The translations under genes were made by a program, and so were the position numbers. DNA of 64,000 nucleotides, from assembly GCA_016842065.1 (NCBI GenBank), contig JAEPDS010000022.1, positions 1 through 64,000 of the forward strand, read 5' to 3'. Positions 32,438 through 47,485 of the stretch are shown piece by piece. The notes below the pieces were generated by a model. It did no database searches, was not told where the DNA came from, and was given only the letters and a program-made list of their open reading frames with translations. Every line of letters begins with the position of its first letter. The stretch's first letter is position 1. Source of the stretch: Candidatus Thiodiazotropha sp. 'RUGA' (lineage in GTDB: Bacteria; Pseudomonadota; Gammaproteobacteria; Chromatiales; Chromatiaceae).

Positions 32438-33424
32438 TTATCCTCCAGACTTCGCCATGAAACGGATCAACTTTTCAGGCCTTTCCCTGAATTCATGACG
32501 CTCTGGTTTAAGGGCGATGGCTCGGCGCAGGTGGTCAGCCAATCCGCTGTCGTCTATCCCATCCCGGAGCAGCTGACGCAGTGGGTATGCGTGCTCATGG
32601 CCCAGACATAAATAGAGATCACCGTCCACGGTCAGTCTCACCCGATTGCAGGTTTCACAAAAATGTTGTGATATGGGGGTGATGAAGCCGATGCGGGTAT
32701 CGGTTCCCGCAAGCCGGTAGTAGCGAGCAGGACCACCGCCGGGCAGTATGTCTGGTATCAACTCGATGCGCCGTTCCAGGCGTTGCTTAACGGTTTGTAG
32801 ATCGATGTACTTATCCACAGCTTTGCGACCGGTATCGCCCATGGGCATGGTCTCTATGAGACGTAGTGTGAATCCTCGCTCAATGCAGTAGTCCAGGATG
32901 GCCTCGATTTCATTGTCATTCACTCCTCGCATCACAACCGTGTTTACTCGGATTGGATCAAATCCTGCTGTTTGGCAGGCCTCTATACCCGCCAGTACTT
33001 TGCTCAGAGAGCCGCCAGTAATCTCTTCAAACACCTTTGGGTGGAGGCTGTCCAAACTTACGTTGAGGCGCCTTACGCCGGCCCTGTAGAGGGGGGCGGC
33101 GAGTTTGTCCATGCGAGTGCAGTTGCTGGATAAAGCCAAGTCGCATATGCCTGGAATGTGGGCCAGACGGTCGACAAGTTCTGTTAGATCCCGACGCATC
33201 AGAGGTTCGCCACCTGTGAGGCGTATCCTGTGCACGCCCATGAACGCAAATGCCCTGGTAACACGTTCGATTTCTTCAAAGCTGAGCCAGTTGGCAGGTT
33301 CCTCGAAGCCTTTAAAGCCTTTGGGCAGGCAATAACTGCAGCGCAGATCACACCGGTCGATTACTGAAATCCTCAGATATTCAATGCGGCGCCCATACAA
33401 GTCTGTCAAGGTGGTGGTTGGCAT
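32438..33424 (-). CDS. moaA: GTP 3',8-cyclase (molybdenum cofactor synthesis)
   Basis: This is the radical-SAM enzyme for the first step of molybdopterin synthesis. The N-terminal cluster motif CX3CX2C is in CDLRCSYCLP near residue 25, and RLTGGEPLMRRDL follows. The C-terminal cluster Cys are in CETCNRVRLTVDGDLYLC. Length 328 is normal. The gene sits next to a molybdoenzyme operon and its regulators, on the same strand as the regulators, so it may be a dedicated or co-regulated copy. No other mo cofactor gene is in the window. Confidence 0.95.
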   Translation of the reverse strand: MPTTTLTDLYGRRIEYLRISVIDRCDLRCSYCLPKGFKGFEEPANWLSFEEIERVTRAFAFMGVHRIRLTGGEPLMRRDLTELVDRLAHIPGICDLALSSNCTRMDKLAAPLYRAGVRRLNVSLDSLHPKVFEEITGGSLSKVLAGIEACQTAGFDPIRVNTVVMRGVNDNEIEAILDYCIERGFTLRLIETMPMGDTGRKAVDKYIDLQTVKQRLERRIELIPDILPGGGPARYYRLAGTDTRIGFITPISQHFCETCNRVRLTVDGDLYLCLGHEHAYPLRQLLRDGIDDSGLADHLRRAIALKPERHEFRERPEKLIRFMAKSGG

Positions 33425-33509
33425 GGAATGTCCTCCGGCAAACTATATAAAGTAGGTATATTTCAGACTGCTTTTACTTGGTTCTGGTGCAGCCAGAAAT
33501 TACAAAAAA

Positions 33510-34901
33510 CTACTTCTCAATCTCGTATCGTTTCATCTTCTCCCATAGATTCTTTCGTGAGATACCCAAAGTATCTGCAGCCAGATTAATTTTTCTGTTG
33601 TTTTCAGACAGCGCCTTATTGATCGCCTTTCGCTCCGCTTCCTCGATTGATTGTCTCAATGTCGTTGTATTAATCTCCTGGCTGTCAACCACCTGGGTCT
33701 GAAGGTCGCTGGTACCGATCCAGGGGGCATCGCACAAAGCGACGGCTCTCTCTATCACATTTTTGAGTTCGCGTACGTTACCTGGAAAAGTCATGGATTG
33801 AAGCAGTAACTCCGCCTCTTTTGACAAGCCTTTAATTGTGCTTCCAGATTTTTTAGTCAGATCACTGACAAATAACCTGGCCAGATAGATGATGTCCTCC
33901 CGGCGCTCCCGCAAAGGGGGGATATCTACGTGTATTACGTTGAGTCGCCAATAGAGATCAGACCTGAACTCCGAGGATTCTATGGATCTTTTCAGATTGA
34001 CCTGGGTTGCGGCAATGACTCTGACATCCAGTGTGATAGGTTCTGCACCACCTACACGTTCAATTTCACGCTCTTGCAGGACGCGCAGTAGTTTGACCTG
34101 TATGTCGGGAGATACTTCGGCAATCTCGTCAAGGAAGATGGTACCTCCTTGTGCTTGTTCAAATCGGCCGATGCGTTGATGCATTGCCCCGGTGAATGCG
34201 CCTTTTTCATGCCCAAACAGTTCACTTTCGATCAGGCTGGAGGATAGAGCGGCACAGTTGACCCGGATCATAGGTGCGTTGGCGCGCTGGCTGTTGTTGT
34301 GAATGAGACTGGCGACAACCTCTTTACCGACACCCGACTCACCGGTGAGTAAGACTGAGCTGTCACTCCCGCCAAGGCGTGCGACCAGTCGCTCGATTCG
34401 ACGCATTGCAGAACTCTTTCCAAGGCGCCCACTGCCGGGTTTGAATTGACTTTCTTCTGCGTCAGAACTGAGTAAAGTTAAGCGGGTATCAGCGATACGT
34501 GAGAGATGGCGCTCGACCTTCTGAATGAAGTTGTTGATATCAAACGGTTTGGTCAAGTAGTCGAGTGCTCCGGCTTTAACCAGTGTGACAGCATCGGCTA
34601 TCTCACCGTAGGCCGTTATGAGGATAACCGGAACACCAGGAAAGTGGCATGAAATATCCTTGAACAGTTCGATGCCAGTACCGTCTGGTAGACGGATGTC
34701 TGTAACGACAAGATCAATGTCGCCCTTTTCGAGTTCTCTTCTTGCGCTGGCTATATTGCTTACGGCGCGGGCAGGGATCTCCTCTAGGTGCAGTCTATCT
34801 TCAAGTGACAGGCGCATGATCTCATCGTCCTCAACAAGGAGTACGCAATAATCCTTCAGGCTATTGTTTGTCGAGGTTTTGTCGATACTGTTTTGTATCA
34901 T
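33510..34901 (-). CDS. NtrC-family sigma-54-dependent response regulator
   Basis: The 463-residue activator has a receiver (about 17-135, acceptor Asp68 in VVTDIRLPDG), a AAA+ domain (about 157-390) with Walker A GESGVGKE at 187-194 and the sigma-54 contact loop GAFTGA at 234-239, and a C-terminal Fis-type helix-turn-helix (NLAADTLGISRKNLWEKMK). Its ATG overlaps the stop of the kinase gene (ATGA). The divergent operon has a sigma-54 promoter and paired palindromes upstream, which this protein probably binds. Confidence 0.94.
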   Translation of the reverse strand: MIQNSIDKTSTNNSLKDYCVLLVEDDEIMRLSLEDRLHLEEIPARAVSNIASARRELEKGDIDLVVTDIRLPDGTGIELFKDISCHFPGVPVILITAYGEIADAVTLVKAGALDYLTKPFDINNFIQKVERHLSRIADTRLTLLSSDAEESQFKPGSGRLGKSSAMRRIERLVARLGGSDSSVLLTGESGVGKEVVASLIHNNSQRANAPMIRVNCAALSSSLIESELFGHEKGAFTGAMHQRIGRFEQAQGGTIFLDEIAEVSPDIQVKLLRVLQEREIERVGGAEPITLDVRVIAATQVNLKRSIESSEFRSDLYWRLNVIHVDIPPLRERREDIIYLARLFVSDLTKKSGSTIKGLSKEAELLLQSMTFPGNVRELKNVIERAVALCDAPWIGTSDLQTQVVDSQEINTTTLRQSIEEAERKAINKALSENNRKINLAADTLGISRKNLWEKMKRYEIEK

Positions 34902-36373
34902 GCTGCCTTCTTGGTGATTACCGGTATTGCTACATGGAAAGTTGTACCCTGACCTTCTTCACTTTTGATTTCAATGATGCCTTCCATACTCTGGACAAGA
35001 CGGTAAATTATCCAGAGGCCCAATCCTGTGCCGTCCGGTTTCGTGGTAAAAAAAGGATCAAAGAGTTTGCTTCTTATGTTGGATGGGATTCCCGGACCGT
35101 TATCGCTGACTTCAATGATCAGGAACGGTCCGCTCTGATGAAGGTTGCAGATAACTGTGCCGCCATCGGCAACAATCTCTACGGCATTCTTTAACAGGTT
35201 GCATACAATCTGCTCTGTCTTGCCGGGAATGTGAAGATTTTGATCAGTATTGTTTTCCCAGATAAAGTCGATATTTTTGTCGCCGCTCTCGGCGGCTATG
35301 AGATCATGTAATTTATCGATGCGTTGAATGCTAATGGATTCATCGCCCCCTTCGATCTTGAGTCCCACCAGCAGATTGTGGACGATTTCTTTGATTCTGT
35401 GCAGACCCTGGTCAATGACAGGTAAGTAACGATCGATGAGATCTTTATCGTTAGGATGTTTGCGTAAAGTATCGATACAATTCAATAGGCCAGCAAGTGG
35501 ATTGTTGACTTCGTGAGCAACACCTGCAGTGATGCGACCGAGGGCCACAAGCTTTTCATTCATGGCAATCTCTTCCTCAAGCATTTTTTTCTCAGCTAAT
35601 TCCGCCATGATTTGATTGAAGGTTACGCTGAGACGGCCGATTTCATCCCGCTCTTTTATCGGAATCGGTGAGAATTCAGTCATTTCTCCCCGGCCGACTG
35701 CTTCCAGGCCTTGAGTGACTGCGGTGAGGGGTTTGACCATGCGTCTAGAGACAATGGTGCCCAGCGCGCTGCCGATGATAACGAAGCAGAATATCAGGGC
35801 AAGAATGAGAATTGCTGTACTTGTTGCTTTTTCGTATAACTGGGCGATCGACAAACGAACTCTTACAACTCCCAGATATTTTTGATCTGAGAATAGTGGT
35901 ACAACCCCTTCCTGGAAGCCCGTTTTTGAGAAACTGTCACTGCTTAGCACGATGGGTGTCCTGGTGCTCATGGCCTGCTCGTAGAATTCTTGCTCGAGTC
36001 TGTTGCGTGGTGTAAAGGGTAGACCCATCGGGTTGTCTGCAGGGTGAAGGTGCGCCTGAATTCTGCCCTCGGCATCGAGTATCATTGCTGTTATGACGCC
36101 ATGATTGCCTTTTGCTTCAGGTCTTCCGGAAGCCATGTTCTTAAGGCTTTGGTAAAGCTGCCAATAGTCTTTGCGCAACATGGCCTTGGGAGTGGTGGCG
36201 GCAATTGATTCTGATAGTAACAGCGCCTTTTCACCCAGTACATCATGAAAGCGTTTCCAATCCTGGACAATCATGACTCCTCCGATCATGAAGCCAACAG
36301 CAGCTACGACGGCGGTAATGGTGAGTGATAACTTTATCGCCAATGGCCAGGATTTAGGTTGATATAGATGCAT
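34898..36373 (-). CDS. Membrane sensor histidine kinase
   Basis: The 491-residue kinase has two membrane segments (about 14-36 and 184-208) enclosing a periplasmic sensor domain, HAMP (about 209-262), and HisKA with His287 in GVAHEVNNPLAG. The ATPase domain has NLLKNAVE, DNGPGIP, FDPFFTTK and GTGLGLWI. It is of the NtrB/AtoS type that pairs with NtrC-like regulators, encoded directly after it. The binding protein gene directly before it (36405) suggests that ligand sensing is done by a separate periplasmic protein, as in a split TtrS. Confidence 0.93.
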   Translation of the reverse strand: MHLYQPKSWPLAIKLSLTITAVVAAVGFMIGGVMIVQDWKRFHDVLGEKALLLSESIAATTPKAMLRKDYWQLYQSLKNMASGRPEAKGNHGVITAMILDAEGRIQAHLHPADNPMGLPFTPRNRLEQEFYEQAMSTRTPIVLSSDSFSKTGFQEGVVPLFSDQKYLGVVRVRLSIAQLYEKATSTAILILALIFCFVIIGSALGTIVSRRMVKPLTAVTQGLEAVGRGEMTEFSPIPIKERDEIGRLSVTFNQIMAELAEKKMLEEEIAMNEKLVALGRITAGVAHEVNNPLAGLLNCIDTLRKHPNDKDLIDRYLPVIDQGLHRIKEIVHNLLVGLKIEGGDESISIQRIDKLHDLIAAESGDKNIDFIWENNTDQNLHIPGKTEQIVCNLLKNAVEIVADGGTVICNLHQSGPFLIIEVSDNGPGIPSNIRSKLFDPFFTTKPDGTGLGLWIIYRLVQSMEGIIEIKSEEGQGTTFHVAIPVITKKAA

Positions 36374-36404
36374 ATTGGATTAGTGTTAACAGGTCCTAGA
36401 AAAA

Positions 36405-37274
36405 CTAGTCAGTTGCGATCATTTGGGTCATTAGTTCATTTCTTTTTGTTGTGTTTGCCAATGCGCGTATGCCATTGAACAGGGAATCAGGGTAATGATC
36501 AAAACCATCCAGTTTGAGTCGAGCAAGAAGGCGTTTACCGATTGGATCCTGGTCCATGTCTTCAAGTGTTTGTTTCATTAATTTAACGGTTGCAGAATCC
36601 ACGCCTAAGCGAGAAACGATAGGTGGAAAACCAAAACCAGGAGATTTGTTGATGATGCGGGTCTGTTGCGTGATGTCCGGCCTGAAGATGGCAAGATATT
36701 CCCAGATATAGGAGTCGACCGCCCCGCCATCGGCTACCTGTTCAGAGACCGCTTGCACTGTCTCGGCGTGATTGAAGGTGAAAAAAGAGTGACGAAAAAA
36801 GCTTTCGGTACCCTTATTATGTTCTGTTATCAGGCTTAGGGGATAGAGAAATCCTGAATTTGAGTCCGGGTCGGAAAAGGCGAAAATCTTGTCTTGAAGA
36901 TCTGTAAATCGTGTATAGGGGCTGGAATGGTGGACGATGATATAGGAGTGATATCGAGGTGCTCCACGATAGACAGGTACTGTCAAAAGCGCTAAGGATT
37001 CGGGGGTTCTTTTTTGAACATAGGGATAGCCACAGATCCAGGCGAATTCAATGCCTCCAGCGGTTACCAGATCCATCACTTCACGATATGATTTCCTGAG
37101 TACAAACTCTATCTGGCGACCCATCTTTTGTTCAAGGTATTGGCTCCACTGATCAAGGAATCTGAGATTTTCGGTAAGTACTACAGCCGTTAAGCCAAAG
37201 CGGATAGGCTGTTCTGGTGTGGCCGCATAGGTAGGTGGGAGCCACAACAGTAAACAAAAGTATATCAATCGCAC
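36405..37274 (-). CDS. PhnD-like periplasmic binding protein, probable signal input
   Basis: The 289-residue protein has a signal peptide (about 1-18, TYAAT) and the PhnD/TtrS-sensor pattern: FGLTAVVLTENLRFLDQW, EFAWICGYPYV, FSDPDSNSGFLYPL and VDSYIWEYLA. TtrS of Salmonella carries a PhnD-like domain fused to its kinase; here it is a separate protein, 31 nt upstream of the kinase gene. It likely binds the respiratory substrate or a related oxyanion. No transporter genes accompany it. It would be first in the operon with the kinase and regulator. Confidence 0.8.
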   Translation of the reverse strand: MRLIYFCLLLWLPPTYAATPEQPIRFGLTAVVLTENLRFLDQWSQYLEQKMGRQIEFVLRKSYREVMDLVTAGGIEFAWICGYPYVQKRTPESLALLTVPVYRGAPRYHSYIIVHHSSPYTRFTDLQDKIFAFSDPDSNSGFLYPLSLITEHNKGTESFFRHSFFTFNHAETVQAVSEQVADGGAVDSYIWEYLAIFRPDITQQTRIINKSPGFGFPPIVSRLGVDSATVKLMKQTLEDMDQDPIGKRLLARLKLDGFDHYPDSLFNGIRALANTTKRNELMTQMIATD

Positions 37275-37570
37275 ATGGACTCCTCATTTTCCAATTACTG
37301 GTAAGCTTTACCACCAGGGTTGATGCTGTACCTGTTTCGATCTGCACAGTATTTCTTGTTCGGATTGAAAAGCCGCAACGGCAACCTACCGTTGAGCTTT
37401 AACGAATATTGTCATCCAAGTACAAGATAATTTATTTATTATAATATTTATGGATGCTGCTTTATGATTCTCGGAACAGATCAATTGATTAACCATGAAG
37501 ATAGTATTAGCTGCTTTTTCGTAAAGAGTGAAGTGAGTTTTCTATCTGTCCCTCCAACATCATGCGTATT

Positions 37571-37586
37571 GTTACCTATCGGTAAC
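37571..37586. promoter_or_regulatory. Upstream activator palindrome 1
   Basis: GTTACCTATCGGTAAC is a 6-bp inverted repeat around 4 nt. The same arms and spacing recur at 37664-37678, about 93 bp to the right (about nine helical turns). The centre is about 165 bp upstream of the -24 element, a usual position for an NtrC-family enhancer site. The binding protein is inferred, not shown. Confidence 0.7.
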
Positions 37587-37662
37587 TTTGTACGTCCTTC
37601 TAGTGAACATAACTGTCTGAAATAAGTTAAGAAAAGCAGGTTAGTTACTAAAACTCGGGAAA

Positions 37663-37679
37663 CGTTACCATCAGGTAAC
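37663..37679. promoter_or_regulatory. Upstream activator palindrome 2
   Basis: CGTTACCATCAGGTAACG is a 7-bp inverted repeat around 4 nt, containing the same GTTACC and GGTAAC arms as the site at 37571. The first base of the motif is at 37663. It lies about 65 bp before the -24 element. Two like-spaced sites suggest cooperative binding by a dimeric regulator such as the product of 33510-34901. Confidence 0.7.
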
Positions 37680-37742
37680 GAAAGTCTTGGTCATCTCTAC
37701 GTCGATTGCTTTTATTTGTGGTTTTTCAGTCATCTGAGTGAT

Positions 37743-37757
37743 TGGCAAGCCTCTTGC
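37743..37757 (+). promoter_or_regulatory. Sigma-54 (-24/-12) promoter
   Basis: TTGGCAAGCCTCTTGC has the invariant GG (37744-37745) and GC (37756-37757) at the exact spacing of the consensus TGGCAC-N5-TTGC. Transcription would start near 37769, leaving a leader of about 55 nt before the ATG at 37825. Presence of a sigma-54 activator gene next door supports it. Confidence 0.75.
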
Positions 37758-37824
37758 TGTACCACTTTCGAAGAATAAATAGAAAAACAGTGAACATTTC
37801 ACAGCATTGGTATGGGAGGAGTGG

Positions 37825-39408
37825 ATGACTATAAGTGGTGGCAGTGGTGATGGGTTACATGTGACCTGGAGACTGTTATTGCTTCTATTCACTGTTGTCG
37901 CTGTAGCGCTCTTTATTGCTTATCAGGGGGTTGAGTATTACACCTCACAGTCCTCTTTTTGTGGTGGTAGTTGTCACACCATGACAGAGCAGTATGAAGC
38001 CTGGAAGAGTGATTATCATCATAAAGAAAACAATCCCAACGGGATGCAGGCGGATTGTATTGATTGCCACTTTCTGCCGGGTGAGCATAAGTCATTGAAG
38101 GCAAAGTATGAGGGTTTACGCCATCTTGCAGCTTATCTATACGACCCTAAAGCTCCACTACCTATTCGGCCGGTAATTCAGGATGGGGCCTGCCTACAGT
38201 CAGGTTGTCATAATCAGAAGAAGCTGGCACAGAAAGAGATAGCGATGACGGAAAATGTTCGTTTTAAGCATGCAGTACATCTTGGAGACAAGGCGCTTGA
38301 TGGAGACAAGATCACTTGTGATACATGTCATTTCAAAACGACAGAAAAAAAACATTTCGAGGTGCCGTATGAGATCTGCTTTCTTTGTCACTTAAAACTC
38401 CAAAAACCCACGCTTGAAATAGCCAGAATGGGTGAGTGCTGTGAAGATGGCAGTTATCAAAAGATCAGTTTTGCAGGTAAACCATCTGTGAACTTCAACG
38501 AGGGTAAATCCCGGTGCGATATCTGTCATACAATCCCTACAAGCTCATTACAGAGCCAGTTGCAGGTTGATGATGATACGACGACAAAGAAACCGATTAC
38601 CCATCAGACCATACAGCAGGCGGATGTTGCCTGTGAGAGCTGCCATTTTGAGGTGGTAAAAGGTCACGGCGAGATCGAAACAGGAAATGTGGTCTCGAAT
38701 GGATGTCTGACCTGTCACAATCGGAGTCAAACGCTACTGGCTTCTGCGAGCGACCGGTCATTGATGCATGGCAAGCATATACCAGACAAGGCCGACTGCT
38801 TTGACTGTCATAGTGTAGTTGAACACAGAAACAGAACGGATCATCTTGACTTTGTGCGGGAGGATTGTCAGCTATGTCATGTCAATCAACATAAGTATCA
38901 GAAACTCCTCCTCTCCGGCGCGCCTGTAGACAGTGAAATTTCCGGCGCGCCACATCTAATGTACGAGGTCAATGTCAATTGTATGGCCTGTCACCTTAAA
39001 AAGGCAGTGAGTCGTGGTCACGATGTTAGAACTGCTGCCGGAGATACCTGTGCGGCCTGTCATACAGAGCAGCACTACAAAATGCTCGATGATTGGAAAA
39101 GTCAATTAACGAGAGAAGTCGAAAGTGCAGAGGAGGTTGAAGCTGAGGCGATTCAACTTCTTACTGCATCAAGAGGCAGTCTAAGCCAGCAGCAGCTGAA
39201 TCAAGCTGAAGAGATGATCGCAAAGGGGAGTGAGCTGCTCAATGTTGTCCGAGTCGGTAATGGTGTGCATAACAAGAAGTACGCAATCACCATACTTGAT
39301 GGTGCGTTTGGCAATTTCGAAGACACTATTGAGCTGATTAAAGGAGCAGTGGTAATTGACCAGGGAGTGTCTCAAGCGCCATTAACAAGTTCGGAGGTGA
39401 TGAGATGA
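37825..39408 (+). CDS. Membrane-anchored multihaem cytochrome c, 12 haem motifs (NapC/NirT-like N-terminus)
   Basis: This 527-residue protein has one membrane anchor (about 14-34). Ten CXXCH motifs follow, with first Cys at residues 78, 165, 185, 231, 270, 294, 325, 348, 386 and 409. There is also a CX3CH at 46-51 and a CX4CH at 123-129, so up to 12 haems. The first motif is followed by HTM as in NapC/NrfH quinol dehydrogenases, where Met can ligate haem. The haem-free C-terminal 110 residues are helical. It probably takes electrons from quinol and passes them to the ferredoxin and molybdo-subunit encoded next. The ATG at 37825 has GGGAGGAG upstream; an in-frame TTG at 37807 lies before that site. 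Confidence 0.85.
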   Translation: MTISGGSGDGLHVTWRLLLLLFTVVAVALFIAYQGVEYYTSQSSFCGGSCHTMTEQYEAWKSDYHHKENNPNGMQADCIDCHFLPGEHKSLKAKYEGLRHLAAYLYDPKAPLPIRPVIQDGACLQSGCHNQKKLAQKEIAMTENVRFKHAVHLGDKALDGDKITCDTCHFKTTEKKHFEVPYEICFLCHLKLQKPTLEIARMGECCEDGSYQKISFAGKPSVNFNEGKSRCDICHTIPTSSLQSQLQVDDDTTTKKPITHQTIQQADVACESCHFEVVKGHGEIETGNVVSNGCLTCHNRSQTLLASASDRSLMHGKHIPDKADCFDCHSVVEHRNRTDHLDFVREDCQLCHVNQHKYQKLLLSGAPVDSEISGAPHLMYEVNVNCMACHLKKAVSRGHDVRTAAGDTCAACHTEQHYKMLDDWKSQLTREVESAEEVEAEAIQLLTASRGSLSQQQLNQAEEMIAKGSELLNVVRVGNGVHNKKYAITILDGAFGNFEDTIELIKGAVVIDQGVSQAPLTSSEVMR

Positions 39409-39423
39409 ACAGGAGAGAACACG

Positions 39424-40278
39424 ATGAGTGATAGAAAAACATCCGATATCAGTCGGCGAAAATTCTTAACTGATGCTGGGGCAGCAGCAGCTGGGGTTGC
39501 CGCAGTGGCAGCACCTGGCGTAAGCCTTCATGCAGCAGAAGGAAAGAAAGCTCCGCGCTGGGGAATGGTTATGGACCTGCGACGGTGTATAGGATGCAGG
39601 GCCTGTACAGTTGCCTGTAAATCGGAAAATAGGGTCTCACTTGGTCGATTCAGAGCCGTTATACAAGAAAAAACCATGGGAACTTTTCCAAATACAAAGA
39701 AGGCGTTTTTACCTTTGATGTGTAATCACTGTGAAGGAAATAAGAAAGACGGTGTTCCTCCTTGTGTTAAAGCGTGTCCAGAGTATCCTGGCGAGCGAGC
39801 CAAGTTCAAGACAGCTGATGGTAAGACCATACGTTACCGTAGTGGTGCAACCTATAAGCGACCGGATGGCTTGATCCTGATCGATAAGGAGAAGTGCATC
39901 GGTTGTGGAAAATGTATTGATGCCTGCCCATATGGTGTTCGATCATTCGATCCATTTGTAAAGGCCGGCGGTGATCCCACCAAGCAGGCAGCAGACAAAT
40001 GCGACATGTGCGCTCATCGAGTGGATAACGGCGTTGAACCGTCCTGTGTCAATACCTGTCAAGGTCGAGCTCGAATATTTGGCGATCTAAATGATCCAGA
40101 CAGTCAGGTGTCCAAGCTTGTCAAAGAGCATAATCTGGCTACACCTGACAATGTACTGCTTCATGAGAAAGGTACCAATCCTCAGGTGTTTTATATCGAT
40201 CCCGATAACATATTAAAAACACTCTATACACAACGAAAGAAGGGTAAACTGGATCATTTTGTGGATCAGATCGTGTAA
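39424..40278 (+). CDS. Tat-exported ferredoxin-type electron transfer subunit (TtrB/PsrB-like)
   Basis: The 284-residue protein has a twin-arginine signal (SRRKFL, Arg11-Arg12) and Cys patterns for four 4Fe-4S clusters: CIGCRACTVAC (from Cys55), CNHCEGNKKDGVPPCVKAC, CIGCGKCIDAC and CDMCAHRVDNGVEPSCVNTC. MVMDLRRCIGC resembles tetrathionate reductase subunit B. It would relay electrons between the multihaem cytochrome and the catalytic subunit in the periplasm. It follows the cytochrome by 15 nt. Confidence 0.92.
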   Translation: MSDRKTSDISRRKFLTDAGAAAAGVAAVAAPGVSLHAAEGKKAPRWGMVMDLRRCIGCRACTVACKSENRVSLGRFRAVIQEKTMGTFPNTKKAFLPLMCNHCEGNKKDGVPPCVKACPEYPGERAKFKTADGKTIRYRSGATYKRPDGLILIDKEKCIGCGKCIDACPYGVRSFDPFVKAGGDPTKQAADKCDMCAHRVDNGVEPSCVNTCQGRARIFGDLNDPDSQVSKLVKEHNLATPDNVLLHEKGTNPQVFYIDPDNILKTLYTQRKKGKLDHFVDQIV

Positions 40279-40310
40279 TCCCTGTGAGCTTGTATTGGAG
40301 AGGAATTGAT

Positions 40311-42833
40311 ATGAAAAAATTAAATCGTCGTGGTTTTATGAAACTGGCTGCAGGCAGCAGCTGTGCAATGGCAGCAGGGTTGGGCTTTACTCAAAAAACA
40401 CTGGCCGGATCGATCAAGCTGCAGGAAGGCGGGCGTGATTTTTCTCCCACAACGAAGAAGGAGCTTCAAGCAATCCCTACAGCTTGCTGGCAGTGCGTCA
40501 CGCGCGATGCGATGATCGGTTTTGTCGAGGATGGTCGTGTGGTGAAGTTGGAGGGGCATCCGGATTCTATCCGGACTTTGGGTAAACTTTGCGCCAAGGG
40601 ACAGGCTGGTATAAATCATGTGTATTTTCCGGATCGCATACTCTATCCGATGTTGCGTGTTGGTAAGCGTGGTGAGCACAAATGGAAACGGATTTCTTGG
40701 GATGATGCTCTGGACTTGATGGCATCAAAGTTAAAGCCGCTGCTTGATGCAGGTACACCTGAGCTGTTCATGTATCAGTACGGACGCCATAAGGGCAGTC
40801 AATCTTCGATCATGCATGACTTCATGGATGCCTTCGGTTCACAAACCATCGGCACCCACACATCAGTATGTGAGGGACCCAAGTGGGTTGGGCAGGAGAG
40901 TCTGTGGGGAGGCATGTACGATAATTGGGACTACGATCATACCGATTTCGTGGTCAATTTCGGCTCCAATCAGTTCGAGACCCATACCAACCACATTCCG
41001 ACGTCACAGCGCCTGATCCGGGCTATGGTTGAACGAAATGTACCGCTATATACTTTCGATGTGCGGCTTTCAAATACCGCTGCCAAGTCCACTGAATGGA
41101 TTCCTATCAAGGTCGGTAAGGACGGTTTGGTGATGTTGTCGATGGTCAATGTGATCATGAACGAAGGCCTTTTTAGAAAGGATCACCTGAAATACATGCG
41201 AGTTTCACCGGATTATCATGCGACTGAAAGTGAAAAAATAGCCGCTATTAAAGAGCATGTGGCCAAGTTTACCCCGGAATATGCTGAAAAAGAGAGTGGG
41301 GTGCCGGCTGATAAACTCAGACAGATTGCCCGAGGATATGCAAAAGCAAAATCGGCCTGCCTCATCGGCTATCGTGGTACGGTCATGCATTACCACGGAG
41401 CTGACCAGGAGCGTGCAGCAATGCTGCTGTCTGCGATTACCAATAACCTTGACAGAAAAGGCGGTCGGATCATGGGTGTCGGTGCTGGATGGAAGCATCC
41501 GCATTCACAAAAAGCCAAAATACAGAGGGGGCTTGATATCGTAAACGGTTTTCCTGGAGAGGCTGCTTTCCCCACACATCAATGCAGCCAGCAGAATCTT
41601 CCGATGATCAAGGATGGTCAAAATGGGCGACCGAAAGTCTACTGGTCGAGTTGTAATAATCAAGCCTTCATTAATGGCAATAACGTAGAAGCGGAAGCTG
41701 TTCTGAAAGATGAGAGCCTGATACCTTTCTACGTGAATACAAACATTGTCTATGACGAATCATCTCAATACGCCGATCTCATCTTGCCGGATGTTACCTA
41801 TCTGGAACGCTGGGATTATGAGGATATGGTGTCACCAACCGGGGTTGCAGAGTACTACATTCGTCAGCCCTTGATAAAGCCACTTGGCGAGTCGCGGGAT
41901 CAGGGTGAAGTATTTGCCGGTCTGGCGGAACGGTTAGGTATTAAACTTGCGTACTCAACCAAGGAGGACTATGTCCGGCAATCTTGTGAGATGACACCCG
42001 GTGTCAAAGAGGCTGGTGGTTTTGAGTACATGAAAAAGCATGGTGTCTGGCACGATAAGAATGCCAAACCCAATTATGGTTTTTATGAAGCCAAAGTGGA
42101 TGTAACTGGAGACGGGATTATTCTCGATGATAAGACCGGCGTTTATTGGAACTATAAGAAAGCAGGGGTGACTGAGGCTGAAGCCAGAAGTAAAGGCTAT
42201 CTTGGAGTAGAGGGTGCCAAAAATGCCTATGTAGCTCAAGACATTGAAGGTACGCCACGCAAGGCCTATCCTCCGAACACATCGTTTGTGAAATCCGGAT
42301 TGCTAGATTTCTACTCCGATAATTTTGCGGCAAAGGGATTTCCGGCATTCCCCACCTACACGCCTGTACCTGAGCATCAGAAGATGGGCAAGGATGACTT
42401 GCATCTGACCACCTATAAAGTTGCTGTACATACTCACTCACGTACAGCTCATTGTAAGTGGCTTTCCGAGATAAAGCATGATAATCCGGCATGGATCAAC
42501 AGCAGAACCGCTGCTGAGCGGGGTATTAAAGAGGGTGATCTAATCAAGGTTGCCAGTGACCTCGGTGAGATAACTACAACTGCACACGTTACCGAGGGCA
42601 TAATTCCCGGCATAGTTGCTATCTCACACCACTTTGGGCGTCAGCAGTCGGGTATCTACGGTTCAGGGAAAAAATCACCCACTCCAGGAGGGGCTGCAGC
42701 AGATCCGGATGTTGCTAATAAGTGGTGGGACAAACACGGCATTCATCCTAACACGATCATTCCAAACAGTTCGGATCCGATCAGTGGTGGGCAACGGTGG
42801 ATGGATACGGTTGTCAAGGTTGTCAAAGCGTAA
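40311..42833 (+). CDS. Periplasmic molybdopterin oxidoreductase, catalytic subunit (Psr/Phs/Ttr/Arr-like)
   Basis: The 840-residue protein has a twin-arginine signal (NRRGFMKLA). The Fe-S motif is Cys59-X2-Cys62-X3-Asp66-X27-Cys94: spacing is canonical but the third Cys is Asp (codon GAT at 40506). The Mo ligand is Cys187 in HTSVCEGPK, as in polysulfide, thiosulfate, tetrathionate, arsenate and selenite reductases, unlike the Ser or Asp of DMSO and nitrate reductases. ISWDDAL, YADLILPD and a C-terminal dinucleotide-binding domain follow. The start at 40311 has GGAGAGGAA upstream. The substrate cannot be assigned; nearby sulfur genes hint at a sulfur oxyanion, but arsenic or selenium compounds or an oxidative direction remain possible. 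Confidence 0.9.
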   Translation: MKKLNRRGFMKLAAGSSCAMAAGLGFTQKTLAGSIKLQEGGRDFSPTTKKELQAIPTACWQCVTRDAMIGFVEDGRVVKLEGHPDSIRTLGKLCAKGQAGINHVYFPDRILYPMLRVGKRGEHKWKRISWDDALDLMASKLKPLLDAGTPELFMYQYGRHKGSQSSIMHDFMDAFGSQTIGTHTSVCEGPKWVGQESLWGGMYDNWDYDHTDFVVNFGSNQFETHTNHIPTSQRLIRAMVERNVPLYTFDVRLSNTAAKSTEWIPIKVGKDGLVMLSMVNVIMNEGLFRKDHLKYMRVSPDYHATESEKIAAIKEHVAKFTPEYAEKESGVPADKLRQIARGYAKAKSACLIGYRGTVMHYHGADQERAAMLLSAITNNLDRKGGRIMGVGAGWKHPHSQKAKIQRGLDIVNGFPGEAAFPTHQCSQQNLPMIKDGQNGRPKVYWSSCNNQAFINGNNVEAEAVLKDESLIPFYVNTNIVYDESSQYADLILPDVTYLERWDYEDMVSPTGVAEYYIRQPLIKPLGESRDQGEVFAGLAERLGIKLAYSTKEDYVRQSCEMTPGVKEAGGFEYMKKHGVWHDKNAKPNYGFYEAKVDVTGDGIILDDKTGVYWNYKKAGVTEAEARSKGYLGVEGAKNAYVAQDIEGTPRKAYPPNTSFVKSGLLDFYSDNFAAKGFPAFPTYTPVPEHQKMGKDDLHLTTYKVAVHTHSRTAHCKWLSEIKHDNPAWINSRTAAERGIKEGDLIKVASDLGEITTTAHVTEGIIPGIVAISHHFGRQQSGIYGSGKKSPTPGGAAADPDVANKWWDKHGIHPNTIIPNSSDPISGGQRWMDTVVKVVKA

Positions 42834-42862
42834 GTTTGATTGTATCTAATCGGAGGGTTGAG

Positions 42863-43516
42863 ATGGGAACTGACTGGAAAGAGTTGGCTTCGGGTGCAAA
42901 ATCAAGAAGCGATATATATGGTCTGTTGAGCGCAGTTTACCGTGAGGAACCCACCGAGACCCTGATCAAACAGATGAAAGGTCCCCAGTTGCTGGGGGCC
43001 TTCACCAGTTTGGGTGTCAAATTAGGTGAGCGGTTCTATACCGACCCTGAATCTGAGGTGGCGGAACAGTTGGCTATCGAATTTACTCGCTTGTTTATAG
43101 GGCCTGGCCCGCATATATCGCCCCATGAATCGGTTTTTGTCGATGCAGACGCTGGAGCAGGTGGACTGTGGGGAGTGCAAACCGTTGAAGTTAAGAAATT
43201 TATTGAAACAACTGGTCTCGATTATGACTTGGGATTTTGCGGTGTTCCCGACCACGTTAGTGTTGAGCTGGAGTTCATGCAGAAACTGAGTGAGTGGGAG
43301 GCGGATCAATGGTTACAAGAAGATCGCAAGAGTGCCGAATACTGTTTGACAGTACAGCGTATGTTTCTGGAAAAACATCTGCTTTGTTGGCTGGCACGCT
43401 TCTGTGATGAGGTAATGGATCAGGCAGAAATGCCTTTCTACCGAGCTATTGCAGATTTAACTAAAACTTATATGGAATATGAAAGGGAGAGTGTTGCAAC
43501 CTTGGCATCTGCCTAG
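42863..43516 (+). CDS. TorD/DmsD-family chaperone for the molybdoenzyme
   Basis: The 217-residue all-helical protein has the TorD-like pattern: an early YGLLSAVYREEP, a central FTRLFIGPGPHISPHESVF (the conserved P-H-ES region) and YDLGFCGVPDHVSVELEFM (DH-VS-ELEF). Such chaperones hold the Tat substrate until cofactor insertion. The start at 42863 has GGAGGG upstream. It is last in the operon; the next gene converges. Confidence 0.9.
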   Translation: MGTDWKELASGAKSRSDIYGLLSAVYREEPTETLIKQMKGPQLLGAFTSLGVKLGERFYTDPESEVAEQLAIEFTRLFIGPGPHISPHESVFVDADAGAGGLWGVQTVEVKKFIETTGLDYDLGFCGVPDHVSVELEFMQKLSEWEADQWLQEDRKSAEYCLTVQRMFLEKHLLCWLARFCDEVMDQAEMPFYRAIADLTKTYMEYERESVATLASA

Positions 43517-46143: not shown

Positions 46144-46719
46144 ATGGCAATAAACAGAGTACCAACGATTTCTCCTTCAGATCTGTTTGCCAGGCAGAAT
46201 CAGGGGGTAAAGATTGAGCTACTTGATGTACGTACGCCTGTAGAGTACAGAGCTGGCCATATTCCGGGAGCAAAACTGTTGTCGCTTGATGAAATCAGTA
46301 AAGAATCTCTGGCGCGGGAAGTTGGTCAGCCAAACGAGACGGAGCAGACTTCTATCTACCTTACCTGTAAAGGTGGTTTTCGTGCTGAACAGGCAGTGGA
46401 TAAGTTGCGTGACTCCGGATATCAGGATTTTGTGCTTGTGGAAGGTGGTACCGATAGCTGGGAACAGTCAGGTCTGCCTTTAAAGCGATGTGGCGGAGTC
46501 ATCTCACTGGAACGACAGGTGCAGATTGTCATAGGCGGCATACTTCTCCTGAAAGTGGTGTTTGGATTTACCTTGCATGAGATGTTCTTCCTCACCGGAG
46601 CCTTGATTGGGGCAGGTTTGATTATGGCCGGGATAACCCGTTGGTGTGGAATGGCCAAACTGATAGCAATGATGCCTTGGAACAGAAATATCAATTGCCG
46701 TGAAAAAGCATTGGTTTGA
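46144..46719 (+). CDS. Rhodanese with C-terminal membrane domain (YgaP-like)
   Basis: The 191-residue protein has a rhodanese domain (about 1-115) with the persulfide Cys in YLTCKGGFR and the substrate loop after DVRTPVEYRAGHIPGA. A DUF2892-type pair of membrane segments (about 125-175) follows. E. coli YgaP has the same layout. It likely handles sulfane sulfur at the inner membrane face. It leads an operon with a persulfide dioxygenase-like protein. Confidence 0.9.
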   Translation: MAINRVPTISPSDLFARQNQGVKIELLDVRTPVEYRAGHIPGAKLLSLDEISKESLAREVGQPNETEQTSIYLTCKGGFRAEQAVDKLRDSGYQDFVLVEGGTDSWEQSGLPLKRCGGVISLERQVQIVIGGILLLKVVFGFTLHEMFFLTGALIGAGLIMAGITRWCGMAKLIAMMPWNRNINCREKALV

Positions 46720-46747
46720 TAGGGTTTTCTGAATAGGAGTGATCAAG

Positions 46748-47485
46748 ATGATCTTTCGTCAATTTTTCGACCATGAGTCTTCCACATATACCTATTTGAT
46801 TGCTGAACGCATGGGTGGTGAAGTGTTACTGATCGATCCGGTGAAGTCTAACGTTGACCAGTACATGCATTCGATCAGCGGAATGGAGATGAAACTGGTG
46901 TTAGCCGTAGATACACATATCCACGCAGATCATGTGACCGGTCTTGGTGATCTGAGGCATGCTACTGGTTGTGCCAGTGCAATGGGTGAGATGTCCAATA
47001 CTGAATGTGTCTCGATCCATTTCAAAGAGGGTGACAAACTCAAGGTGGACAATCTGCGTCTGGATGTACTCTATACCCCAGGGCATACCGATGATTCCTA
47101 CAGTTTCGTATTGCCGGATCGCGTTCTAACCGGAGATACGCTGTTGATTCGCGGTACCGGGCGTACTGATTTTCAGAATGGAGATCCAGCAGATCAATAC
47201 GACAGTCTGTTTGATAAATTACTCAGGCTTCCCGATGAAACACTGGTCTATCCGGCGCATGACTACAACGGCAAGACAGTGAGTACCATCCACGAAGAGA
47301 AACTGTTCAATCCAAGATTGCAGGTAGCGAATAAGCAGGCCTATGTGGAGTTGATGAACGGTCTGCAGTTGGATAATCCCCGCCTGATGGATGTTGCTGT
47401 TCCGGCAAATCGTAATTGCGGCCTGAAGTCTGCTGCTCAGGTCAGTCAACAGACTCTTTGTGATTCATACAATATAGGAGGGTGA
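46748..47485 (+). CDS. MBL-fold persulfide dioxygenase-like protein (ETHE1 type)
   Basis: The 245-residue protein has THIHADH near residue 57, a His in TPGHTDDS, an Asp in LTGDTLLIRGTGRTDFQNGD and a His in PAHDYNGK, the metal ligands and the GRTDFQ signature of ETHE1-type persulfide dioxygenases. These oxidise glutathione persulfide to sulfite. The rhodanese next to it would be its partner. The ATG at 46748 follows AGGAGT; a GTG nine bases earlier overlaps that site. Confidence 0.9.
   Translation: MIFRQFFDHESSTYTYLIAERMGGEVLLIDPVKSNVDQYMHSISGMEMKLVLAVDTHIHADHVTGLGDLRHATGCASAMGEMSNTECVSIHFKEGDKLKVDNLRLDVLYTPGHTDDSYSFVLPDRVLTGDTLLIRGTGRTDFQNGDPADQYDSLFDKLLRLPDETLVYPAHDYNGKTVSTIHEEKLFNPRLQVANKQAYVELMNGLQLDNPRLMDVAVPANRNCGLKSAAQVSQQTLCDSYNIGG

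Follow-up and report, generated by a model that had tools for sequence, protein, structure and literature searches.

The quinol link of the respiratory arsenate reductase Arr in Shewanella is CymA, a cytochrome of the NapC/NirT type, and cytochromes of this type usually oxidise quinol. In Qrc, an anchored multihaem cytochrome is laid out together with a ferredoxin and a MopB protein. This study concerns a periplasmic respiratory module encoded in a 64,000-nucleotide stretch of DNA (hereafter, the window) on contig C22 (JAEPDS010000022.1) of the 4.77 Mb genome of Candidatus Thiodiazotropha sp. 'RUGA', in which a 12-haem cytochrome, a ferredoxin-type subunit, and a molybdoenzyme stand beside a sensor of the AioX/ArxX/ArrX family. 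Arsenic is the leading candidate for the substrate since this sensor family coincides with an active-site Arg/His/Tyr set that was found, among the references compared here, only in ArrA and ArxA. We propose with moderate confidence that the module is a lineage of periplasmic arsenic oxidoreductases separate from Aio, Arx, and Arr and that it most likely acts as an arsenite oxidase in this host. When all arsenic readings are taken together, arsenic is quite probably the substrate. The locus comprises the following features:

32438-33424, minus strand: moaA, encoding GTP 3',8-cyclase of molybdenum cofactor synthesis (TIGR02666, 355.7 bits, cut-off 284.05)
33510-34901, minus strand: NtrC/AioR/ArxR-type sigma-54 response regulator (Response_reg, Sigma54_activat, HTH_8)
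34898-36373, minus strand: sensor histidine kinase in the AioS/ArxS position (sCache_3_2, which is Cache-like, HAMP, HisKA, HATPase_c)
36405-37274, minus strand: periplasmic binding protein of the AioX/ArxX/ArrX family with a Phosphonate-bd fold (PDB scores, pocket, sensor tree)
37743-37758, plus strand: sigma-54 (-24/-12) promoter-like site TGGCAAGCCTCTTGCT (15 of 16 consensus positions, one mismatch)
37825 (ATG) or 37807 (TTG, the opening of the ORF) to 39408, plus strand: membrane-anchored 12-haem c-type cytochrome (PF03264, PF14537, PF22113, motif count)
39424-40278, plus strand: Tat-exported ferredoxin-type subunit (twin-Arg signal, 16 Cys, PF13247)
40311-42833, plus strand: catalytic molybdoenzyme with a Mo-bisPGD fold and a predicted Cys187 ligand (twin-Arg signal, PF04879, PF00384, PF01568)
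about 42863-43516, plus strand: TorD-family chaperone, TorD/Nitrate_red_del (PF02613, 87.2 bits, cut-off 22.2)

The ORFs and their Pfam and NCBIfam matches bore out the layout given in the initial annotation, namely an operon from the cytochrome gene to torD with the genes for the binding protein, kinase, NtrC-type regulator, and moaA lying divergently. The nearest locus among public contigs was that of Ca. T. endoloripes (L009), where all eight genes occur in the same order and the catalytic subunit is 96% identical. The catalytic subunit had been described as a Cys-liganded, Tat-exported molybdoenzyme, which agrees with its twin-Arg signal and with the aligned Cys187, the probable Mo ligand. 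The 16 Cys residues of the ferredoxin are expected to hold four [4Fe-4S] clusters; its best NCBIfam match was TtrB (190.8 bits), which missed the cut-off of 416. A moaA-like ORF was also present in the arx cluster of Sulfuricella and at one aioA locus (L136).

The binding protein had been labelled PhnD-like. In comparisons with PDB entries, however, it scored 213.8 bits with AioX and 127.8 bits with ArrX, against 49.9 bits with PhnD, and was therefore placed in the AioX/ArxX/ArrX sensor family. A PhnD transport protein was rejected on these scores and on the conserved pocket Cys, and inspection by eye of the ORFs between 28 and 48 kb gave no recognisable ABC transporter gene. The pocket of AioX is formed by Tyr88, Cys106, Tyr131, Ser161, Ser163, His192, and Asp210, with arsenite linked to Cys106; according to the same report, arsenite was the only tested anion that AioX and ArxX bound, the others including antimonite, selenate, tetrathionate, and thiosulphate, and ArrX bound arsenate and, more weakly, phosphate (PMC5908839). 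All seven pocket residues are present in the window sensor, in which Cys81 corresponds to Cys106 of AioX. When 52 rows were aligned, the pocket read YCYSSHD in 43, YCYSTHD in seven (Ser163Thr, as in Sulfuricella ArxX), and YCYSSHE in one (Asp210Glu); the remaining row, the sensor of L083, is without three pocket residues and lies outside the module.

As a control, 398 Pseudomonadota genomes were searched with the sensor, independently of the enzyme, and 20 of the 27 places outside its own genome were read (all 11 strong and nine of the 16 weak ones, in stretches down to 3.9 kb). The 11 strong homologues (178-237 bits, nine genomes, own genome excluded) lay in a cluster with aioA in six cases and with arxA in two (8/11). 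The six AioA proteins scored 1075-1310 bits with TIGR02693 (cut-off 359), and the two ArxA proteins scored 1330 and 1368 bits with Sulfuricella ArxA. Of the remainder, one was clustered with a relative of the module enzyme of the type found in Azoarcus KH32C (hereafter, Azoarcus-type), and two (L134 and L138) had no molybdoenzyme within about 9 kb. No molybdoenzyme of another known kind was found beside any of the 11.

In a tree of sensors (59 of 72 rows, 13 near-duplicates having been dropped), those of the module were spread over several branches of the AioX/ArxX/ArrX family. The gamma- and alphaproteobacterial module sensors formed branches of their own, with the window sensor in its own branch outside the AioX, ArxX, and ArrX proteins. 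The sensor of L024 fell inside an AioX-containing group (95/88), those of L056 and L059 joined ArxX and AioX in one group (88/82), and the deltaproteobacterial sensors grouped with ArrX (100/100). In length and in hydrophobic residues, the loop of the window sensor matches that of AioX/ArxX. To our mind, the strongest argument for arsenic is that one enzyme family is repeatedly found paired with sensors from different branches of an arsenic-sensor family. Separately, full-pocket AioX-like sensors were noted in L142-L150 (nine genomes, one family, f40), mostly beside large kinases and away from any molybdoenzyme in the stretches read; these possibly belong to another arsenic- or phosphate-sensing system.

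The active site of the catalytic subunit gave a second line of evidence. Arg159, His183, Thr184, Cys187, Lys191, and Tyr203 were invariant in all 74 module rows, and the combination of Arg, His, and Tyr occurred in six of 24 reference rows, all of them ArrA or ArxA. The TtrA, PhsA, DmsA, NapA, Fdh-like, Rhodococcus-type, L082-L085, and Azoarcus-type rows each lacked at least one of the three, and PsrA had none of them at the matching places of a PDB alignment. We take the three residues to match Arg165, His189, and Tyr210 of ArrA, which presumably line its substrate site. A Lys is found four places after the ligand Cys in the module and five places after it in ArrA; in the ArxA rows, both positions are without a Lys.

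In the catalytic tree (62 of 100 rows after clustering at 85%), the module enzymes formed a clade of their own, separate from ArxA and ArrA. Membership of ArxA/ArrA was ruled out by this tree together with an approximately unbiased (AU) test on 43 rows, 22 having been dropped. Tight clustering with a characterised enzyme was not seen among the enzymes placed in the trees, in which PhsA was the one representative of the set PhsA, PsrA, SrrA, SoeA, and SreA. With the ArrA model NF041714, the subunit scored 164.7 bits (cut-off 1600), a cut-off that Sulfuricella ArxA also misses at 431 bits. Membership of PhsA, TtrA, DmsA, and QrcB was likewise rejected, as all scores were below the curated cut-offs: 318.5 of 694 bits for PhsA, the best NCBIfam match, 105.9 of 1750 for TtrA, and 166.5 of 440 for QrcB. 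A model of the subunit built with AF2 (mean pLDDT 86.4) had PsrA (Z, 36.8) and then ArrA (34.5) as its nearest folds by structural Z, and ArrA was the top match in Foldseek. Within the genome itself, the ArrA model was scored on two of 15 candidates and NCBIfam on six of eight other molybdopterin proteins; the AioA model had no match at 1e-60 among 23 candidates.

The cytochrome matched PF03264 (NapC/NirT) at 58.8 bits (cut-off 24.1), begins with a hydrophobic stretch, and carries ten CXXCH motifs, one CX3CH, and one CX4CH, which agrees with the anchored 12-haem protein described at the outset. Twelve haem motifs were counted in 51 of 53 cytochrome rows, the window included, with 11 and 10 in the other two. 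The cytochromes of the deltaproteobacterial loci L045 and L048 start with what resembles a signal peptide instead of an anchor; those of L060 and L077 retain the anchor-type start. An NrfD-type gene was absent from the operon, no PF03916 match was found on the contig, and the three matches in the genome were on contigs C4, C45, and C1. In relatives with the order ferredoxin, NrfD, and catalytic subunit, NrfD stands where the cytochrome stands here. Among the module loci, 46 had the cytochrome without NrfD, seven had both, and six had NrfD without the cytochrome; these NrfD counts are minima, obtained by sequence clustering with one member checked by Pfam. The absence of an NrfD-type subunit thus holds for the operon and contig of the window but not as a general rule, since seven of the 53 cytochrome loci, all deltaproteobacterial records, also had an NrfD-cluster ORF within 6 kb. 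As for the proposal that the cytochrome replaces the quinol-oxidising subunit, its position is consistent with this, and the NapC/NirT-type N-terminus suggests that it may react with quinone. Electrons could possibly flow from the cytochrome towards quinone, by analogy with what is assumed for the NrfD-type ArxC.

The sigma-54 promoter predicted earlier was recovered as a conserved site. A site matching at least 14 of 16 sigma-54 positions preceded 35 of 50 homologous cytochrome genes, a set that includes near relatives, as compared to 41 of 1000 single-base shuffles. Since matches to a loose sigma-54 pattern were not enriched in the window (15, with 22.4 expected), the evidence for the promoter is its conservation in place.

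The gene set recurred in marine alpha-, gamma-, and deltaproteobacteria when it was sought in other genomes. The contig scan, taken from the best 80 of 98 stretches, gave 77 loci, of which 73 make up the module family; L082-L085 were set aside as more distant (32-34% identity). The 73 loci included a cytochrome in 53, a ferredoxin in 70, TorD in 70, an AioX-type sensor in 50, a kinase in 47, an NtrC-type regulator in 52, moaA in six, and an NrfD-cluster ORF within 6 kb in 13. Where the flanks extended to 6 kb or more upstream and 1 kb or more downstream (48 loci), the counts were 39 for the cytochrome, 48 for the ferredoxin, 47 for TorD, 42 for the sensor, 38 for the kinase, 43 for the regulator, and nine for NrfD. 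Loci with the cytochrome were found in lucinid symbionts, other gammaproteobacteria, marine alphaproteobacteria, and deltaproteobacteria, and the catalytic gene alone extended to further phyla. Five alphaproteobacterial loci (L035, L036, L038, L040, and L064) have a dihaem cytochrome c gene after torD (Pfam was run on L038 only).

Eighteen of 22 Thiodiazotropha genomes carried the catalytic gene. One of them, G588, carried three forms: the module, a ferredoxin-NrfD-catalytic subunit-TorD version (56%), and a third (41%) that is equipped with a separate sensor set and an NrfD-like ORF and resembles the Azoarcus type by eye. Two family members in tandem were seen in the gammaproteobacterial locus L056 and similarly in L054, L058, L061, and L081; in L056, one of them is accompanied by an NrfD-like ORF, a NapC/NirT-type cytochrome, and an ethylbenzene-dehydrogenase-like protein. 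Seventeen loci (including L025:12262-12864 and L037:10240-10908) encode, mostly near torD, a secreted protein that bears a CGWWGDGE-like motif. The L037 copy matched a PTP-type Pfam model below its cut-off, the L025 copy matched none, and in L053 a motif of this sort occurs in a Sel1-rhodanese protein.

The module is envisaged to work as described below. Arsenite would bind the AioX-type sensor at Cys81, upon which the kinase and the NtrC-type regulator would activate the sigma-54 promoter, and TorD and MoaA would serve in the supply and loading of the cofactor. The exported molybdoenzyme would exchange oxygen and two electrons with an arsenic oxyanion at a Cys187-bound Mo. Electrons would pass through its [4Fe-4S] cluster to the four-cluster ferredoxin and on to the anchored 12-haem cytochrome, which would take the place of NrfD/ArxC and provide the link to quinone or periplasmic cytochromes. 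The scheme builds on what was observed of gene order, domains, haem and cluster motifs, promoter conservation, sensor family and pocket, phylogeny, and active-site residues; from these, we infer arsenic as ligand and substrate, the direction of the reaction, the assembly of the complex, and its contact with quinone. The AioX/ArxX type of loop in the window sensor and the dihaem cytochrome c of the alphaproteobacterial loci fit arsenite oxidation. The module had been thought to act on an unidentified oxyanion; its nature as a sigma-54-controlled periplasmic respiratory module stands, and the oxyanion can now be narrowed to probable arsenic by the sensor family and the Arg/His/Tyr set.

Several observations weigh against this interpretation. 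The nine weaker sensors that were read (109-129 bits, one bacterial family) all had the complete pocket, with no molybdoenzyme along the 3.9-19.5 kb covered, and the pocket alone is thus no proof; according to PMC5908839, specificity is not fixed by the residues of the pocket. The AioX/ArxX and ArrX groups meet the window branch and the weaker sensors at one node without a resolved order, so that the closeness of the window sensor to AioX rests on score and loop. This loop reads AVVL in the window sensor as opposed to PVFL in AioX. The deltaproteobacterial loops are one residue longer, and the ArrX loop is described as shorter in PMC5908839. The Azoarcus-type, Rhodococcus-type, and L083-type rows share the Arg and the His, leaving Tyr203 to carry the contrast, and the Azoarcus-type relative, which is best tied to ars genes, has Ile at that position. 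Forcing the module enzymes together with ArxA/ArrA cost 112 units of log-likelihood (p-AU, 2.2e-5; 43 rows), and one of the neighbours outside the catalytic clade is a Rhodococcus enzyme encoded next to tusA and dsrE. The NapC/NirT-type cytochrome suits a reductase, given the quinol oxidation that we take to be usual for this type. We found no biochemical evidence for any member of the family.

The genomic surroundings weigh on both sides. Arsenic genes were recognised in only four of the 73 module loci, a minimum because few reference proteins were used, and ars neighbours were therefore rejected as main evidence. The four are L047, with ACR3 and an ArsR-type gene ahead of the sensor gene; L019 and L021, with ArsJ and its GAPDH about 3 kb beyond torD; and L041, with a GAPDH as in L019 and L021 and a cut ACR3-like ORF. 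A permease of L031, which matched Pfam ArsP_1 and no NCBIfam model above cut-off, was not counted. No arsenic gene was recognised adjoining the module in the window, the ACR3 gene of this genome being on contig C14. In favour of arsenic, the relative in Azoarcus KH32C (38%) is plasmid-borne, together with the same three regulators and an NrfD gene, and it adjoins an operon of an HTH regulator, arsC, arsD, arsA, and ACR3; this layout mirrors the arx island of Cereibacter and the arx cluster of Sulfuricella with moaA. In genome G270, an Azoarcus-type relative lies about 8 kb from arxB2A.

Some further features of these surroundings were noted in passing. The Azoarcus-type cluster, the arx cluster, and a third molybdoenzyme ORF of G270 lie within 32 kb (L131 and L132; contig C1, 1-32000), close to an apparent dnaA. 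At 46144-47485 of the window, ORFs for a metallo-beta-lactamase resembling persulfide dioxygenase and for a rhodanese with membrane helices were recognised by eye, 2.6 kb downstream of the operon and beyond a GGDEF gene. An aioAB-like pair with two dihaem proteins occurs in L155 (1756-7403; TIGR02693, about 381 bits; TIGR02694, 110 bits) and also in L156, L157, and L158 (G590, G582, G588, and G572), a layout which we take to be that of the iodate reductase genes idrABP1P2. A link of the module with this Idr-like enzyme was not used, as the gene occurs in six of 22 genomes of the genus and lies 7-11 kb from the module in two of the six. The labels idr, ArxB2, and 'Azoarcus-type' for L160 are presumptive, some of them having been given by eye.

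The best-surviving alternative, which we regard as unlikely though deserving of consideration, is an enzyme of the broad Psr/Phs kind acting on polysulfide, thiosulfate, tetrathionate, selenite, or a similar sulfur or selenium compound, with a regulator borrowed from the arsenic family that now binds another oxyanion. Such an enzyme would suit a sulfur-oxidising host, the rhodanese- and persulfide-dioxygenase-like ORFs downstream, and the related enzyme beside tusA and dsrE; the leading PhsA match, the highest structural Z with PsrA, and the occurrence of the sensor pocket away from any molybdoenzyme point the same way. However, the PhsA cut-off is far off, and the Arg/Tyr pair is absent in PsrA and PhsA. 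Furthermore, the module is paired with sensors from several arsenic-family branches, and neither AioX nor ArxX bound any sulfur or selenium oxyanion tested (PMC5908839).

It is less probable still that the same arsenic module works here as a respiratory arsenate reductase, in which the cytochrome would oxidise quinol as CymA does and feed the ferredoxin and molybdoenzyme. The NapC/NirT-type N-terminus and the Lys near the ligand Cys, shared with ArrA at an offset differing by one and missing from the ArxA rows, would accord with reduction. The window sensor, however, lies outside the ArrX group, scores far higher with AioX than with ArrX, and has a loop resembling that of AioX/ArxX; the host is a sulfur oxidiser, and the dihaem cytochrome c added in five alphaproteobacterial loci is of the onward-electron-carrier kind. 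Since the deltaproteobacterial sensors group with ArrX, at least those members may reduce arsenate; this is what we expect of them from their sensors, the NrfD added in seven loci, and the cytochrome starts of L045 and L048. A division of the lineage, with arsenite oxidation in marine alpha- and gammaproteobacteria, arsenate reduction in Desulfobacterota, and an operon-encoded 12-haem cytochrome replacing NrfD in this further group of Cys-liganded arsenic oxidoreductases, has close to an even chance of being correct. Detoxification of arsenic or a related metalloid, as opposed to energy metabolism, is very improbable: some loci lie beside ars genes and arsenic-inducible control would be expected either way, but the Tat export, the quinone-type anchor of the cytochrome, and the costly 12-haem chain point to respiration, and none of the genes adjoining the module in the window was recognised as ars.

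The proposed arsenic oxidoreductase is thus assembled from known parts, namely AioX-type control, a MopB enzyme, and a NapC/NirT cytochrome, and we found no description of the lineage and combination in which they occur here. Going by titles and the openings of abstracts, the literature searched, with most subscription papers and preprints outside its coverage, contained no paper on this gene set or on arsenic enzymes of Thiodiazotropha. A survey of cold seeps used aioA, arxA, and arrA as markers of respiratory arsenic metabolism (PMC10060404), and surveys built on these three genes would not be made to count the module lineage. If arsenic is the substrate of the module, the current markers miss a widespread marine lineage, and chemosynthetic clam symbionts would be arsenic metabolisers. 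The presence of two membrane links, NrfD or a 12-haem cytochrome, in one enzyme lineage also bears on the evolution of quinone-linked molybdoenzyme complexes.

Compared with described systems, the module shares with Qrc and alternative complex III a membrane-anchored multihaem cytochrome beside a ferredoxin and a MopB protein, but it falls short of the QrcB model (166.5/440 bits), retains the Mo-ligand Cys, and has no NrfD-type QrcD. It departs from Psr/Phs in its PhsA score (318.5/694 bits), in having no NrfD subunit, and in an active-site Arg and Tyr that are not common to both. Its sensor resembles AioX, ArxX, and ArrX in score, pocket, and gene order, whereas none of the three lies in the window branch of the sensor tree, and the loop there reads AVVL for PVFL. 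Arr, with CymA or ArrC beside ArrAB, is the second-best fold by Z (34.5) and the top Foldseek match, and it shares the Arg/His/Tyr set as well as a Lys close to the ligand; the module cytochrome, unlike CymA, is a 12-haem protein with its gene in the operon, and the score with the ArrA model is 164.7 bits (cut-off 1600). With respect to Arx (arxXSR/arxB2ABCD), the catalytic subunit has about 25% identity with Cereibacter ArxA and lies outside the ArxA clade, a 12-haem cytochrome stands in for the NrfD-type ArxC, and ArxB2 is not in the operon. Nevertheless, the two systems have in common the set of binding protein, kinase, and NtrC-type regulator, a Cys-liganded Tat molybdoenzyme, a four-cluster ferredoxin, TorD, the Arg/His/Tyr active site, and, in Sulfuricella, an adjoining moaA.

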